From assembly GCA_030672305.1 (NCBI GenBank), contig DAOVGR010000039.1, forward strand, positions 66,651-130,650: a stretch of 64,000 nucleotides of DNA, read 5' to 3'. Shown piece by piece: positions 21,144 through 27,320 of this stretch. Numbering within the stretch: position 1 is the first letter of the stretch; every line of letters starts with the position of its first letter. The translations under genes were made by a program, and so were the position numbers. The notes beneath the pieces are model-generated. The model was not told where the DNA came from, made no database searches, and saw only the letters and a program-made list of their open reading frames with translations. The stretch is from Thermoplasmatales archaeon. GTDB lineage: Archaea; Thermoplasmatota; E2; DHVEG-1.

Positions 21144-22046
21144 ATGGAGAATGATGTTTATGATAATTACATTTTTGCAGGTAAGATTGCAGCAAAAGCT
21201 AGAGAATATGGCATTGGTTTATTAAAACCAGGATTTAAATATTTGGAAATTGCTGAAAAAGTTGAATCAAAAATTATAGAAGGTGGAGCTGGACTTGCCT
21301 TTCCAGTTAATATTTCAATAAATGAGATTGCAGCTCATTTTAGCCCAAGACATGATGATGCGACATTGACCTTAAAAAAAGGAGATGTGGTAAAATTAGA
21401 TCTTGGAGCACATTTTGAAGGATATATTGCAGATACTGCAATAACTGTTGAGATTGGGTCTAATGAATATGAAAATATGATTAAAGCATCAACTGAAGCA
21501 TTGGAAAATGTTATTAATTTTATAAAACCTCAAATTAAACTATTTGATATTGGAAAATGTGTTGAGGATACTATTAAATCCTACGGTTTCAAACCAATTA
21601 TTAATCTTACAGGACATAGTATGAAAAGATATGTACTTCATGCAGGAATGACTATCCCAAATGTTGCAGATCGATCTTATAAAAATAAATTAAAAATCGG
21701 TGATGTTTTAGCAATTGAACCTTTCGCAACAAATGGTGCAGGGCAAGTTATAACTGGAGAGGGGAGCAATATTTACCTATGTAAGAATACTTTTAAACCA
21801 AGACTTATCAGAGATAATCGAGCAAAAATTATGTTTAGCAAGGCAAAGAATATTTTTAATACACTTCCCTTTGCTCAAAGATGGTTTGAAAAGCAATTTT
21901 CTAATAGTGATATTTTATTAAGAAAACTCTCCTTTCTAGGAATGATAAAGCACTATCCACAACTAATCGATGCGAATAAAGGAATTGTAACTCAGAAAGA
22001 GCATACGGTTATAATAACAGAAGAAGGATGTGAGGTAATCACATGA
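21144..22046 (+). CDS. map: Methionine aminopeptidase, type II
   Basis: This 300 aa dinuclear metallopeptidase removes the N-terminal Met. Metal ligands are visible in LDLGAHFEGYIADTA (two Asp), TGHSMKRYVLHAG (His), AIEPFATNG (Glu) and the C-terminal QKEHTVIITEEG (Glu). The insert of about 60 residues before the last ligand marks the type II subfamily of Archaea and eukaryotes. The start MENDVYDNYIFAG fits homologs; the frame opens 13 codons earlier inside sua5. Its last 4 bases overlap the next gene. Confidence 0.94.
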   Translation: MENDVYDNYIFAGKIAAKAREYGIGLLKPGFKYLEIAEKVESKIIEGGAGLAFPVNISINEIAAHFSPRHDDATLTLKKGDVVKLDLGAHFEGYIADTAITVEIGSNEYENMIKASTEALENVINFIKPQIKLFDIGKCVEDTIKSYGFKPIINLTGHSMKRYVLHAGMTIPNVADRSYKNKLKIGDVLAIEPFATNGAGQVITGEGSNIYLCKNTFKPRLIRDNRAKIMFSKAKNIFNTLPFAQRWFEKQFSNSDILLRKLSFLGMIKHYPQLIDANKGIVTQKEHTVIITEEGCEVIT

Positions 22047-22903
22047 AAAATAATACCAATAAAATAACAGAATCAAAAATTATCAAATTAGAAGAACTAA
22101 ATTGGAAACAAATCGACAAACTTGATAGAAATAAAACAATTTTCTTTTTACCAATTAGCCCGTTAGAGGAGCATGGACCTCATTTACCTGTTGGAACAGA
22201 TTTACTGACTATAAAAGACGTTGTTAATGAGGCAGTAAAAATCTTAAATAAAAAAAATCCTGAACTAGCATATGTTGTAATACCTCCAATACCACTTGGC
22301 TATTGTAAATTTAATACAGAATTTCCAGGTAGTATATCTGTTAGTGGAAAAGTTGTAAGAGATGTTGTTTATAGTGTTGGATCATCACTGGGAAATCATA
22401 AATTTAAATATCTGATTATTTGCACATTTCATTTAGCTGTAGCCCATCTTAGGGGTATATATTCTGCTATGAAGAAACTAGAATCTGAATTTGGATTTAG
22501 AACTTGTGAACCATGGGGACCTATCTATTACAAAAAAGATATTGAAAAAAGGGAACCAAAATTAGGTTTTGATACAACAAAAGAAGTTCATGGAGGTTTT
22601 AGAGAAACTTCACTTATGAAATACCAATATCCTTACCTTGTAGATGAATCTTATAAAAAATTGCAAAGTATATATAGAGATGTTTTCTCACCTAGAGTTT
22701 TAGGAAAGAATTTTAAAGAAATTGGTTTAAAAGATGGTTACATTGGTAGTCCTGCAAGAGCAGATGCTGATTATGGAAGATGGTTTTTTAATGAGTTAGT
22801 AAATGTTTTTGTCGATTCAACAATCAAACTTTATGAGGGAAAAAAACTTCCAGAGTTACCGAACCATGTTAAAATTGCAATGAAAGCACTTTTTTGGCAA
22901 TAA
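22043..22903 (+). CDS. Creatininase-family amidohydrolase/peptidase with altered motifs
   Basis: The 286 aa protein has the N-terminal creatininase signature LPISPLEEHGPHLPVGTD, which carries Glu, His and Asp metal ligands. The family's usual NGHGGN (or NGHYEN) is replaced by CTFHLAVAH, and the HAGExETS-type motif reads HGGFRETS, so the metal site may differ. Relatives include creatininase, the pterin/flavin-pathway deformylase ArfB and the mycofactocin precursor protease MftE. It overlaps map by 4 bp but ends 6 bp from the convergent last gene of the radical SAM operon. A role in trimming those peptides is only a hypothesis. Confidence 0.78.
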   Translation: MKNNTNKITESKIIKLEELNWKQIDKLDRNKTIFFLPISPLEEHGPHLPVGTDLLTIKDVVNEAVKILNKKNPELAYVVIPPIPLGYCKFNTEFPGSISVSGKVVRDVVYSVGSSLGNHKFKYLIICTFHLAVAHLRGIYSAMKKLESEFGFRTCEPWGPIYYKKDIEKREPKLGFDTTKEVHGGFRETSLMKYQYPYLVDESYKKLQSIYRDVFSPRVLGKNFKEIGLKDGYIGSPARADADYGRWFFNELVNVFVDSTIKLYEGKKLPELPNHVKIAMKALFWQ

Positions 22904-24227: not shown

Positions 24228-25298
24228 CTAATCAATTTCGACAAAATTTTGTATATTTTTCTCAATTCGATAATAACAATTTGGGTCGTTATGAGGAATT
24301 CCTGTTATACTACTCGATCTAGTTAAACATCCACCTTTGCATTTTTTTCCATATTTGCATTGTTGACAATTTTCTCCCAGATTTTCAACTTTAAATTTCC
24401 GATTAAAGGCAAAGGCATTTGGATCATTCCAGATTTCTTTGATATTCCTTTTATGAATATTTCCCTCAATAAATTCATCAGACATCGCAAGACATCCTTT
24501 GACGTTTCCATTGCTTTGAATTCCTAGAACTGTTTTTCCAGCGTAACAACCTTCCCATTCTGGATAATTACTTAAATTTGGAATAACTCGCGAAAAGAAT
24601 CCAAAATTATGTACACCGACAATCGGAATTTCTTTTGTTTTATATTTTTTTTGCATAGAATACACAAAGAGACCTAGAGTATAATACTCTTCATCTGATA
24701 ATAAAAGCTTTTTTGGAAATCTACCTATTGGTGTTGCTTCCTGGATTTGCCATCCTATTTGTTCCTCTATAATAAAATTTTTAATTTTTGGCAATTCTCT
24801 AAAATTTATCTTATGAACTGTTGTAATAATTCCTATTGGTAGATTTGCCTCTTTTGCTGCACGAATAAATTTTGTTACTTTACTGTAGGCACCTTCAACA
24901 TTTCTTATTTTATCCTGCATTTCTGCTGAAGCACCATCCAGACCAACCATAAGACATTCTGGTTCTATCTTTTTTAATTGAGGGATAATTTTTTTCGGAT
25001 CAAAATACCCATTTGTAATTATTGATAAGGTAATTCCTAAATCTTTAATTTCTCTAGAAATAACTGGCCAATCCTTACGTAAAAATATCTCGCCACCCAT
25101 TAATGCGATTCCTTTAAATCCTAAATCTGAGAGCTCATGGCAGAGCTGAAGAGCTTCCTTTGTAGTTAATTCATCTGTCCTTTTTAATCCTGCAGAAGAA
25201 CCACAATGAAGACACTTTAAATTACATCTGAGCGTAAGCTCCCAAACAGTGATATCAGGATTTTTATAGATTCCTTTACTTATCATAATATCATTCAT
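24228..25298 (-). CDS. Radical SAM/SPASM peptide maturase-like enzyme B
   Basis: This 356 aa protein has a radical SAM core with C25-x3-C29-x2-C32 (LRCNLKCLHC), GGE at MGGEIF, and a C-terminal SPASM domain. Multiple Cys (GCYAG, GCLAM, CQQCKYGKKCKGGC, NCYY) fit two auxiliary iron-sulfur clusters. SPASM enzymes typically modify peptides or proteins. It is about half identical to its upstream neighbour, a tandem duplication. ATG 25298 overlaps the neighbour's stop by 8 bases, so translation is probably coupled. Its motif reads GGEIF where the twin has GGEPF. The proximity of three small peptide genes suggests their products as substrates. Confidence 0.9.
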   Translation of the reverse strand: MNDIMISKGIYKNPDITVWELTLRCNLKCLHCGSSAGLKRTDELTTKEALQLCHELSDLGFKGIALMGGEIFLRKDWPVISREIKDLGITLSIITNGYFDPKKIIPQLKKIEPECLMVGLDGASAEMQDKIRNVEGAYSKVTKFIRAAKEANLPIGIITTVHKINFRELPKIKNFIIEEQIGWQIQEATPIGRFPKKLLLSDEEYYTLGLFVYSMQKKYKTKEIPIVGVHNFGFFSRVIPNLSNYPEWEGCYAGKTVLGIQSNGNVKGCLAMSDEFIEGNIHKRNIKEIWNDPNAFAFNRKFKVENLGENCQQCKYGKKCKGGCLTRSSSITGIPHNDPNCYYRIEKNIQNFVEID

Positions 25299-26430: not shown

Positions 26431-26610
26431 TTAAAAATCTTTGATACTAATTGATCCATAAAAACAACTTGTATACATAGGTGGACGTGGACCTGTTTCT
26501 GATTTAGGCTGTTTTATTACATTGGTATAACTGTTAAGCACGTTTTTAATTTCAGTCTGGCTTAAACCTAGCTTTTTTCCAACTTGATAGTATGTCTTAC
26601 AACTACTCAT
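26431..26610 (-). CDS. Putative RiPP precursor peptide 3
   Basis: A 59 aa peptide, starting at ATG 26610 (a TTG four codons upstream is less likely; the context TAATAAAAATGA matches that of precursor 2). The N-terminal half YYQVGKKLGLSQTEIKNVLNSY is leader-like and amphipathic. The C-terminal half begins at GP and reads MYTSCFYGSISIKDF at its end. Two sister genes upstream share the final nine residues almost exactly. The pattern of related leader, variable middle and conserved tail, next to two radical SAM/SPASM enzymes, is what RiPP precursors look like. It is the only one of the three with Cys in the presumed core. Confidence 0.8.
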   Translation of the reverse strand: MSSCKTYYQVGKKLGLSQTEIKNVLNSYTNVIKQPKSETGPRPPMYTSCFYGSISIKDF

Positions 26611-26668
26611 TTTTATTACCAATTTTTCAGAGATTAATTCAAAGATTATAAAAGTTATGTAATATTAG

Positions 26669-26730
26669 TAACAAAAACACGGTAGAATGTGTCATATAAA
26701 TACTTTCTGTTACAAGAGTAATTGACACAT
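26669..26730. repeat. Two interleaved inverted repeats between precursor genes
   Basis: GTAACA (26669-26674) pairs with TGTTAC (26709-26714), and TGTGTCA (26689-26695) pairs with TGACACA (26724-26730). The arms alternate A-B-A'-B', so they cannot form two simple hairpins but could make a pseudoknot in RNA, or be two overlapping operators in DNA. They flank the TATA-like sequence of precursor gene 3. Confidence 0.5.
26694..26704 (-). promoter_or_regulatory. TATA box of precursor gene 3
   Basis: The minus strand reads GTATTTATATG followed by ACACATT. The same arrangement, a TATTTAT-type box followed within 15 nt by ACACATT, occurs upstream of precursor 2, and TATTTAA-ACACT occurs upstream of precursor 1. 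A second AT-rich candidate lies nearer the gene at about 26648-26655. Confidence 0.5.
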
Positions 26731-26790
26731 AACCTTTTGTTATTATAATATCATCTCAAAGAATTTTGATATTGTTAATTTGTGATTTAT

Positions 26791-26964
26791 TTAAAGATCC
26801 TTGATACTAACTGTTCCATAACGATTTCCTGGATACCATGGTGGTCCTGATGAGAAATAAACTTGTTCCAGGCTTGAATTTTCTATAATGTTTTCTATAT
26901 CAATATTACTTAAACCTAGTTTGTTTCCAAGTTTATAAATTTTAATTTCCGTATGATTTTTCAT
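26791..26964 (-). CDS. Putative RiPP precursor peptide 2 (57 aa)
   Basis: A 57-codon gene from ATG 26964 to TAA 26791. The leader-like part IKIYKLGNKLGLSNIDIENIIENS aligns with precursor 3 (YYQVGKKLGLSQTEIKNVLNSY). The C-terminal part starts with SGPPWYPG and ends RYGTVSIKDL, differing from its sisters mostly between GP and YG. There is no Cys in the peptide. Its short length makes it easy to miss, but position, orientation, spacing (about 180 bp from each sister) and sequence make it a genuine member of the set. Confidence 0.8.
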   Translation of the reverse strand: MKNHTEIKIYKLGNKLGLSNIDIENIIENSSLEQVYFSSGPPWYPGNRYGTVSIKDL

Positions 26965-27040
26965 TTTTATCAGTCCTAATATTATTCACTAGATTAATGT
27001 ATCTATGAATAATTAAACCATATACCTCAATGTGTAATAA

Positions 27041-27050
27041 TTTATAAATA
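27041..27050 (-). promoter_or_regulatory. TATA box of precursor gene 2
   Basis: The minus strand reads TATTTATAAA, followed by ACACATT about 8 nt on, as in the region before precursor 3. Just upstream, TGCTC (27054-27058) and GAGCA (27065-27069) form a short inverted repeat where a TFB-recognition or regulator site would lie. Confidence 0.55.
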
Positions 27051-27131
27051 TTCTGCTCTAAATGGAGCATTATTACCATTAAGATATTATATTCTAAACG
27101 AAATTTTTAAAATATGAGTTTAATGATTTAT

Positions 27132-27320
27132 TTAGAAATCTTTGATGCTTATTGTTCCATAATAAGTTGAAGTATACATTACAGGACCCGCTGTTAAACA
27201 GCCTTGTTCGTTTGATGATGCTCTGTTTGCTAAAATACTTTCTACTTCTTCTCTATTTATTCCCAGGGTGCTTGTCAGCTCGTTGAGCTTTCCCCAATTT
27301 ATATTGATATATTGTAGCAT
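27132..27320 (-). CDS. Putative RiPP precursor peptide 1
   Basis: A 62 aa peptide from ATG 27320; an ATG five codons upstream (27335) is also in frame, but it lies only 15 nt from the TATA box, so the inner start, giving a nearly leaderless mRNA, fits better. The leader-like part contains GKLNELTSTLGINREEVESIL. The C-terminal part starts at AGP and ends MYTSTYYGTISIKDF. It shares MYTS with precursor 3, and the nine-residue tail with both sisters. One Cys lies in the middle (QGCLTAG), before GP. It is the first of the three and follows the CapK-like gene by 57 bp on the same strand. Confidence 0.8.
   Translation of the reverse strand: MLQYININWGKLNELTSTLGINREEVESILANRASSNEQGCLTAGPVMYTSTYYGTISIKDF

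Follow-up and report, generated by a model that had tools for sequence, protein, structure and literature searches.

According to a review (PMC10373908, section 10), peptide backbone splicing is broad 'across the bacterial kingdom'. In the prototype of this chemistry tyramine is excised at an X-Tyr-Gly site, and the characterised splicease, PlpX, is a member of family IPR026482 (PMC11002830). PlpXY is reported to splice without needing the leader, and its products, the spliceotides, are described as protease inhibitors (PMC10373908, section 10; PMC11117315). No archaeal case of splicing was found in the literature searched, and a survey of archaeal RiPPs (PMC12144867) contains no word starting with 'splic'. 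Here we describe a locus within a 64,000-nucleotide stretch of a Thermoplasmatales genome (the window) in which three genes for short peptides with a common C-terminal tail adjoin two radical SAM/SPASM genes. We hold with about even confidence that the peptides are RiPP-like precursors from which the enzymes excise tyramine at the X-Tyr-Gly of the tail, as PlpX does.

The cassette and its gene neighborhood

The genes of the cassette lie on the minus strand in the order ligase, three peptide genes, rSAM-A, rSAM-B and methyltransferase/TPR gene (Table 1). In a census of 24 sources (the window, three stretches from its own genome and 20 stretches of relatives), relatives of the enzymes were present in 21. 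Eight sources have the ligase, and seven have the methyltransferase/TPR gene. Both rSAM-A and rSAM-B were found in eight loci, namely the window, L040, L042, L043, L044, L045, L050 and L051. The contig end truncates rSAM-A in L043; L042 has the same flanking genes as the window and lacks the methyltransferase. Related Thermoplasmatota also have this cassette of two radical SAM enzymes, methyltransferase/TPR protein, PaaK-like ligase and peptides. A creatininase-family gene (22043-22903, plus strand; MftE 55 bits against a cut-off of 172) adjoins the cassette on the opposite strand, and such a gene likewise flanks it in the syntenic L042.

Table 1. Genes of the cassette, with their positions in the window
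Feature	Position	Strand	Evidence
Methyltransferase domain with C-terminal TPR repeats, 433 aa	22910..24211	-	Pfam Methyltransf_11 3.1e-5, TPR_2 1.6e-6
rSAM-B, radical SAM/SPASM enzyme, 352 aa from ATG 25286	24228..25286	-	Pfam 4e-22, 5e-10
rSAM-A, radical SAM/SPASM enzyme, 349 aa	25291..26340	-	Pfam Radical_SAM 1.7e-26, SPASM 9.7e-10
Precursor peptide 3	26431..26610 (alternative TTG start 26622)	-	ORF and L040 orthologue; C-terminus ..GPRPPMYTSCF-YGSISIKDF
Precursor peptide 2	26791..26964	-	ORF and L040 orthologue; C-terminus ..GPPWYPGNR-YGTVSIKDL
Precursor peptide 1	27132..27320 (alternative upstream ATG 27335)	-	ORF and L040 orthologue; C-terminus ..GPVMYTSTY-YGTISIKDF
PaaK / coenzyme F390 synthetase-like adenylate-forming ligase, 461 aa	27378..28763	-	NF041878 5.4e-32, TIGR02304 6.5e-22, below cut-off

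Precursor peptides of the window

The first-pass annotation of this DNA had noted that the three peptides keep their last eight or nine residues, and the closer comparison agrees: the tails have the consensus YG[TS][IV]SIKD[FL] with 6 of 9 columns identical, while 200,000 residue shuffles never gave more than 3. Relative to the same-genus orthologues in L040, the tails show 3 amino-acid and 7 synonymous changes in 27 codons. Amino-acid changes affect 8 of 27 codons in the nine residues before the tail and 45 of 133 in the leader; for the tail against the rest of the precursor the figures are 3/27 and 53/160 (Fisher p = 0.023). The difference, though modest, fits peptides that are translated and whose tail is constrained.

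A Pfam search with the three precursors at E up to 0.001 returned no family, and in particular no Nif11 or nitrile-hydratase-like leader. The structure model of a precursor is poor (pLDDT 63.9, pTM 0.31); it has leader helices at 14-24 and 28-38 and the tail at about 60. Three further full precursors are found in the window genome on contigs 56, 35 and 21, far from the enzyme genes, and two more precursor-like matches, with E values of 0.18 and 0.27, are probably due to chance. A short frame-broken, core-like stretch, LYKAGLYYGTISIKDF, lies on contig 26 of the same genome (G000:C26:56991-57038, L190); it has no leader and is out of frame with the closest ATG in the current assembly.

The radical SAM/SPASM enzymes and their nearest relatives

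When the window enzymes were compared with 18,950 NCBIfam models, the best matches of both were TIGR03913, the GDL-motif maturase (E = 9.3e-60 for rSAM-A and 8.8e-61 for rSAM-B), and TIGR04103, which we take to be the PlpX splicease family, IPR026482 (1.5e-58 and 3e-53). All four matches are below cut-off, at 202.3 and 205.7 bits against 591.75 for TIGR03913 and at 198.4 and 180.9 bits against the curated 725 for TIGR04103. The latter cut-off was passed by none of 60 enzyme relatives; a Nostoc positive control scored 853.1 bits. The same two models also rank at the top for four distant relatives, from Geobacter, Loki-, Thor- and Heimdallarchaeota. Matches of the window enzymes extend to the mycofactocin, heme and sactipeptide families, in keeping with the shared radical SAM/SPASM fold. 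The cysteines of the CX3CX2C motif and the SPASM clusters (C20/24/27, C246, C264, C306/309/315/319 and C336) are invariant in 27 sequences and again in 39. An AF2 model of rSAM-A (pLDDT 92.6) has PqqE, SkfB and SuiB as its closest solved structures; such matches of a predicted structure only say that the enzyme would be a RiPP-type radical SAM/SPASM protein, and nothing finer.

Outside the archaea, the best matches of a plasmid search were enzymes of Agathobacter, Azospirillum (GDL-type), Nostoc (TIGR04103) and Aureibacter. The gene of the Nostoc TIGR04103 protein (853 bits) is flanked on one side by a Nif11 precursor with the C-terminus ..IALYGLPPELF and on the other by a small PlpY-like ORF, and the Azospirillum TIGR03913 and Aureibacter enzymes adjoin DUF1843 peptides with LYG, PYG, LYA, MYA or MYM near the N-terminus. 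The DUF1843 peptides beside GDL-type enzymes in L170, L172, L174 and L173 have in common an N-terminal [LPM]-Tyr-[Gly/Ala/Met]. Directly upstream of the radical SAM gene on an Agathobacter rectalis plasmid is an unannotated ORF (L171 4710-4925) ending ..FGPVMYGTGVRM.

rSAM-A (9 rows, support 100/99) and rSAM-B (10 rows, 99/96) form two orthologous clades. In the tree that includes the nearest known enzymes, the 38 rows of the window family group at 89/98 (not starred). The TIGR04103, GDL, Aureibacter and Tropicibacter enzymes join at 100/99, and the MftC/TIGR04053 enzymes are more distant (98/99). No branching order is supported among the window family, PlpX/GDL, Agathobacter and TIGR04133, the last of which is, to our knowledge, not known as a splicease. 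An AU test rejects a 43-row group with the Tropicibacter enzyme L178 as outgroup (p 0.002). Once L178 is counted within the group, the test no longer rejects 44 rows against 5 (p 0.455); this is no proof of a clade, and the 44-row grouping was named post hoc from the tree itself. In the 7 kb of L178, a member of the PlpX/GDL clade, no short YG ORF was found on the plus strand.

Distribution of the family and conservation of its precursors

In a sample of the phylum the enzyme family was detected, at E up to 1e-90, in 23 of 389 genomes. A degenerate DNA pattern of the tail matched 6 of 292 phylum genomes (reversed control, 0), and all six are among those that carry the enzyme. A wider scan of genome contigs gave 386 enzyme relatives. 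The best 80, retained for analysis, come from Thermoplasmatota, Thor-, Loki-, Heimdall- and Hodarchaeota, Elusimicrobiota, Syntrophus, Smithellaceae, Geobacter, Nitrospiraceae and other bacteria; many relatives are metagenome bins whose individual taxon labels may be wrong. A precursor profile matched 66 of these best 80 loci in round one and 73 after three rounds. There was no precursor match in L085, L087, L098, L100, L101, L105 and L132 (7 of 80), where a looser pattern gave nothing convincing.

Positions are numbered below from the tail Tyr, taken as 0. The test free of anchoring on this residue was a search with a profile of the leader alone: 63 of its 68 matches have the tail motif, compared with 118 of the 6,692 remaining ORFs of 45-160 aa at these loci. 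A set of 38 rows (30 short precursors and 8 of a membrane class) was drawn from 39 matches by dropping a leader-only fragment (L044 3418-3513), counting two near-identical L056 peptides as one and splitting a fused L046 ORF. This set was anchored on a Tyr with Ser at +4, so that Tyr0 and Ser+4 are constant by construction. The wider counts, on 137 precursors (137 of 139 distinct matches were assigned) or 118 distinct sites, were anchored on Tyr0.

Among the 30 short precursors, Ser+4 is found in 30 (by construction), Ile+5 in 27, and Asp+7 and Phe+8 in 25 each; Lys+6 is replaced by Asn, His or Gln in 11. X-Tyr-Gly is present in 3 of 3 window peptides, 29 of 30 short precursors and 83 of 137 precursors of the wider family, in which, with Tyr as the anchor, a Tyr at -5/-6 occurs in 111, Asp or Glu at +7 in 118 and Ser+4 in 85. 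The residue after the tail Tyr is Ser in 21 of 23 Lokiarchaeota, Tyr in 10 of 10 Elusimicrobiota and Gly in 31 of 38 Thorarchaeota precursors. The membrane-class precursors of Thermoplasmatota keep Gly+1 in 1 of 8 cases and lack the Tyr at -5/-6 in 6 of 8. The tail Tyr, itself the anchor of the counts, is the sole residue kept across all assigned classes. Two points of the earlier reading are supported: the tail is constant and accompanies the enzymes, and the Tyr, one of its plausible crosslink or cleavage sites, is the likely reacting residue.

Every precursor has Gly+1 in the loci with rSAM-B (8 of 8), against 1 of 9 loci without this gene. A causal role of rSAM-B was nevertheless set aside, because the loci lacking it belong mostly to another clade, because G002 and G028 carry rSAM-B or a fragment of it elsewhere, and because the Thorarchaeota retain Gly+1 to the extent given above without a recognised rSAM-B.

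The first-pass annotation had contrasted the conserved tail with a variable middle between GP and YG, given as MYTSTY, PWYPGNR and MYTSCF. PWYPGNR is correct; the other two had been trimmed, and are really VMYTSTY and RPPMYTSCF. When the three segments are aligned from the tail, one Pro and the Tyr at -5 are invariant, and the middle is therefore not simply variable. The contrast fails also in related genomes, where a second Tyr is conserved in 28 of the 30 short precursors, lying at -5 in 16 and at -6 in 12, and size is constrained by position. In the 118 distinct sites from the loci of the best 80 of 386 relatives, Gly occupies -3 in 86, and Thr, Ser or Gly occupies -2 in 88; large residues occur at -2 in 7 and at -3 in 3. 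In 103 of 118, position -1 holds Arg, Lys, Leu, Met, Phe, Tyr, Trp or His, compared with a background of 0.377. Per-position conservation across homologues thus upholds a constant tail and adds a middle that is constrained at -5/-6, -3, -2 and -1. The resulting pattern is a Tyr, a short Gly-containing spacer, a large or basic residue and then the tail.

Cys occurs between GP and YG in just one of the three window peptides (26431-26622), as had been reported, and at -8 to -1 in 7 of 30 short precursors, the other 23 having none there. The earlier argument that thioether chemistry of the sactipeptide type cannot be general holds, and such chemistry was rejected on these counts.

Precursor carriers

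The core and tail are found on several kinds of carrier, short peptides with a leader being one. A leader followed by a transmembrane helix, the membrane class, occurs in Thermoplasmatota, Lokiarchaeota and Thorarchaeota. Precursors of Geobacter, Syntrophus and Smithellaceae contain a Kunitz_BPTI domain; of four bacterial precursors examined, three exceed the Pfam cut-off for it and the fourth, L094, falls narrowly short. This domain lies between leader and tail in L119 6424-6975, L083 6553-6999 and L104 6598-7011. Two L044 precursors have tandem cores, with YKAGTxYGTxS repeated two and three times, and one genome (L056/L074) encodes leaderless peptides of 26-31 aa that are barely more than a core. 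In runs of precursors in L137, L126, L109, L114 and L120, from Thermoplasmatota and Heimdall-/Hodarchaeota, a YGV[FY] motif replaces the long tail.

L047 (4301-8878) and L059 (47-3410) each have a membrane-anchored precursor (..GKRYAAISPLDF) and a single radical SAM enzyme, flanked by PAD_porph and Peptidase_C25 genes, as assigned by Pfam for the genes of L047 and through homology for L059. PAD_porph is the peptidyl-arginine deiminase family, which also includes agmatine deiminases, and Peptidase_C25 is the gingipain family. The residue preceding the Tyr in this precursor is Arg, which would fit an Arg-specific protease.

Proposed reaction and its alternatives

From these observations we infer the following scheme, in which tyramine excision, the enzyme responsible for it, the use of the product and what the methyltransferase/TPR protein and the ligase contribute are all proposals. 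Each precursor would have an N-terminal helical leader followed by the core pattern Tyr-x(4,5)-X-Tyr-Gly-Thr-Ile/Val-Ser-Ile-Lys-Asp-Phe. Its constant tail would act as a recognition tag, and the residue before it together with its first two residues would form the X-Tyr-Gly site. The radical SAM/SPASM enzymes would cut the tyramine unit out of the backbone and rejoin the ends (-135.0757 Da), so that X becomes an alpha-keto-beta-amino (ketoamide) residue. X, in window peptides 1 to 3 Tyr, Arg and Phe in turn, would then be a P1-like residue presented to a protease. We propose that the residues before the Tyr vary among the peptides because they set the target protease of the ketoamide; the products are perhaps protease inhibitors.

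Several observations argue for splicing. TIGR03913 and TIGR04103 are the best of all the models compared, which points to PlpX-type chemistry, a possibility that the first-pass annotation had not considered, and the peptides encoded beside the related Nostoc, Azospirillum, Aureibacter and Agathobacter enzymes count in the same direction. The tail accompanies the leader in the leader-only search, and the six phylum genomes with the tail pattern all have the enzyme. Tandem cores, as in L044, would follow from a motif that is itself the unit of reaction, the leaderless peptides of L056/L074 agree with a dispensable leader in PlpXY, and the reading of X as a P1 residue of a protease inhibitor is in line with the Kunitz fusions and with a large or basic residue at -1. 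Against splicing count the constancy of Ser+4, Asp+7 and Phe+8, which exceeds what X-Tyr-Gly alone requires, and the position of L178 in the PlpX/GDL clade without a short YG ORF. A search for a PlpY homologue (phmmer with the Nostoc PlpY-like query) found none at E up to 1 among the 30,339 ORFs of the loci, although a highly divergent partner could escape it. Given the scores below cut-off, this result for PlpY and a leader of neither Nif11 nor nitrile-hydratase type, we do not file the system as a spliceotide; it probably works like one.

Splicing does not account for the loss of Gly in Lokiarchaeota, Elusimicrobiota and the membrane class, for the constant Ser, Asp and Phe, or for the presence of two conserved Tyr residues and two enzymes, and these features leave room for a carbon-carbon or carbon-oxygen (cyclophane-like) crosslink from the tail Tyr to the Tyr at -5/-6, Ser+4, Lys+6 or Asp+7. 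This was one of the two readings preferred by the first-pass annotation, the other being the tail as a recognition handle, and we think it unlikely. It would explain why several residues besides the Tyr are constant, above all in the short precursors, and why the Tyr at -5/-6 is so widespread in both the short and the wider sets; the fold of the enzymes is also common to crosslinking maturases such as SuiB. However, no partner residue is constant throughout the family: most membrane-class precursors lack the Tyr at -5/-6, Ser, Asp and Phe are gone from the precursors with YGV[FY], in Heimdall-/Hodarchaeota and in L126/L137, and Lys+6 gives way to other residues in more than a third of the short precursors. 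Maturases of the dynobactin and sactipeptide types also score lower than TIGR04103.

That the tail is a mere handle for recognition or cleavage, later removed, with the modification in the middle and chiefly at the Tyr at -5/-6, seems to us distinctly improbable. This Tyr is kept where two enzymes, or the Asgard or Elusimicrobiota enzymes, occur, and in many precursors the tail stands at the extreme C-terminus, where it could be removed; but the tail motif repeats together with the core in the L044 repeat precursors, and the YGV[FY] and membrane classes mostly lack the middle Tyr while keeping that of the tail.

Other radical SAM chemistry, at the Tyr or at another residue, would suit the matches to other families of this common fold, but is very unlikely, be it oxidative decarboxylation of the mycofactocin type, epimerisation or a thioether. 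Mycofactocin-like chemistry was rejected: MftC acts on a C-terminal Val-Tyr while the tail Tyr is the ninth residue from the C-terminus of each window peptide, and the TIGR03962 scores are 126.9 and 112.5 bits against a cut-off of 265. Most short precursors, as noted, have no Cys in the eight residues before the Tyr.

Returning to tyramine excision, we tentatively extend it, with somewhat less than even confidence, to a ketoamide-forming class spread over Thermoplasmatota, Asgard archaea, Elusimicrobiota and a few other bacteria. In such a class one C-terminal tag would be carried on many architectures, position -1 would be varied for different proteases, and the lineage of the window would use two enzymes, perhaps one for each Tyr.

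If splicing is the correct reading, backbone splicing by tyramine excision extends into the archaea, Asgard lineages among them, and both the enzyme pair and the precursor architectures are of kinds for which the literature searched gave no description. That full-text search found no description of this family; Scott et al. 2022 (Chem), Morinaka et al. 2018 and Haft 2011 lie outside it, and an earlier description is possible. Dozens of unannotated archaeal peptides would gain a concrete, testable function, and the question of which paralogous enzyme modifies which conserved Tyr would become directly testable. A short C-terminal tag and small enzymes without PlpY would also be possible tools for installing ketoamides in proteins.

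Comparison with known systems

The mycofactocin system (MftA/MftC/MftE) resembles the window locus in its Tyr-directed radical SAM/SPASM chemistry and in the creatininase-family gene close to the window cassette. It differs in that the window Tyr is not C-terminal and the creatininase gene is on the opposite strand.

The GDL-motif maturase (TIGR03913) with its DUF1843 peptides is one of the two best matches, and these peptides have an [LPM]-Tyr-[Gly/Ala/Met] site. However, that Tyr site is near the N-terminus and is followed by the DUF1843 helix with GDL, whereas the site in the window is C-terminal, after the leader; the window enzymes are below the TIGR03913 cut-off and the window precursors have no Pfam match.

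In contrast to the PlpXY spliceotide systems, the window cassette is archaeal and has two orthologous enzymes below the TIGR04103 cut-off, a constant C-terminal tail, a methyltransferase/TPR protein and a PaaK-like ligase. Its precursors have no Nif11 or nitrile-hydratase leader by Pfam, and no gene was found resembling PlpY, the partner protein that is a truncated RiPP recognition element. In both systems, a radical SAM/SPASM enzyme is encoded beside small precursors with X-Tyr-Gly, TIGR04103 being among the two best matches of the window enzymes; sites may recur within one precursor, and in at least one relative of the window the leader appears to be dispensable, as it is for PlpXY.
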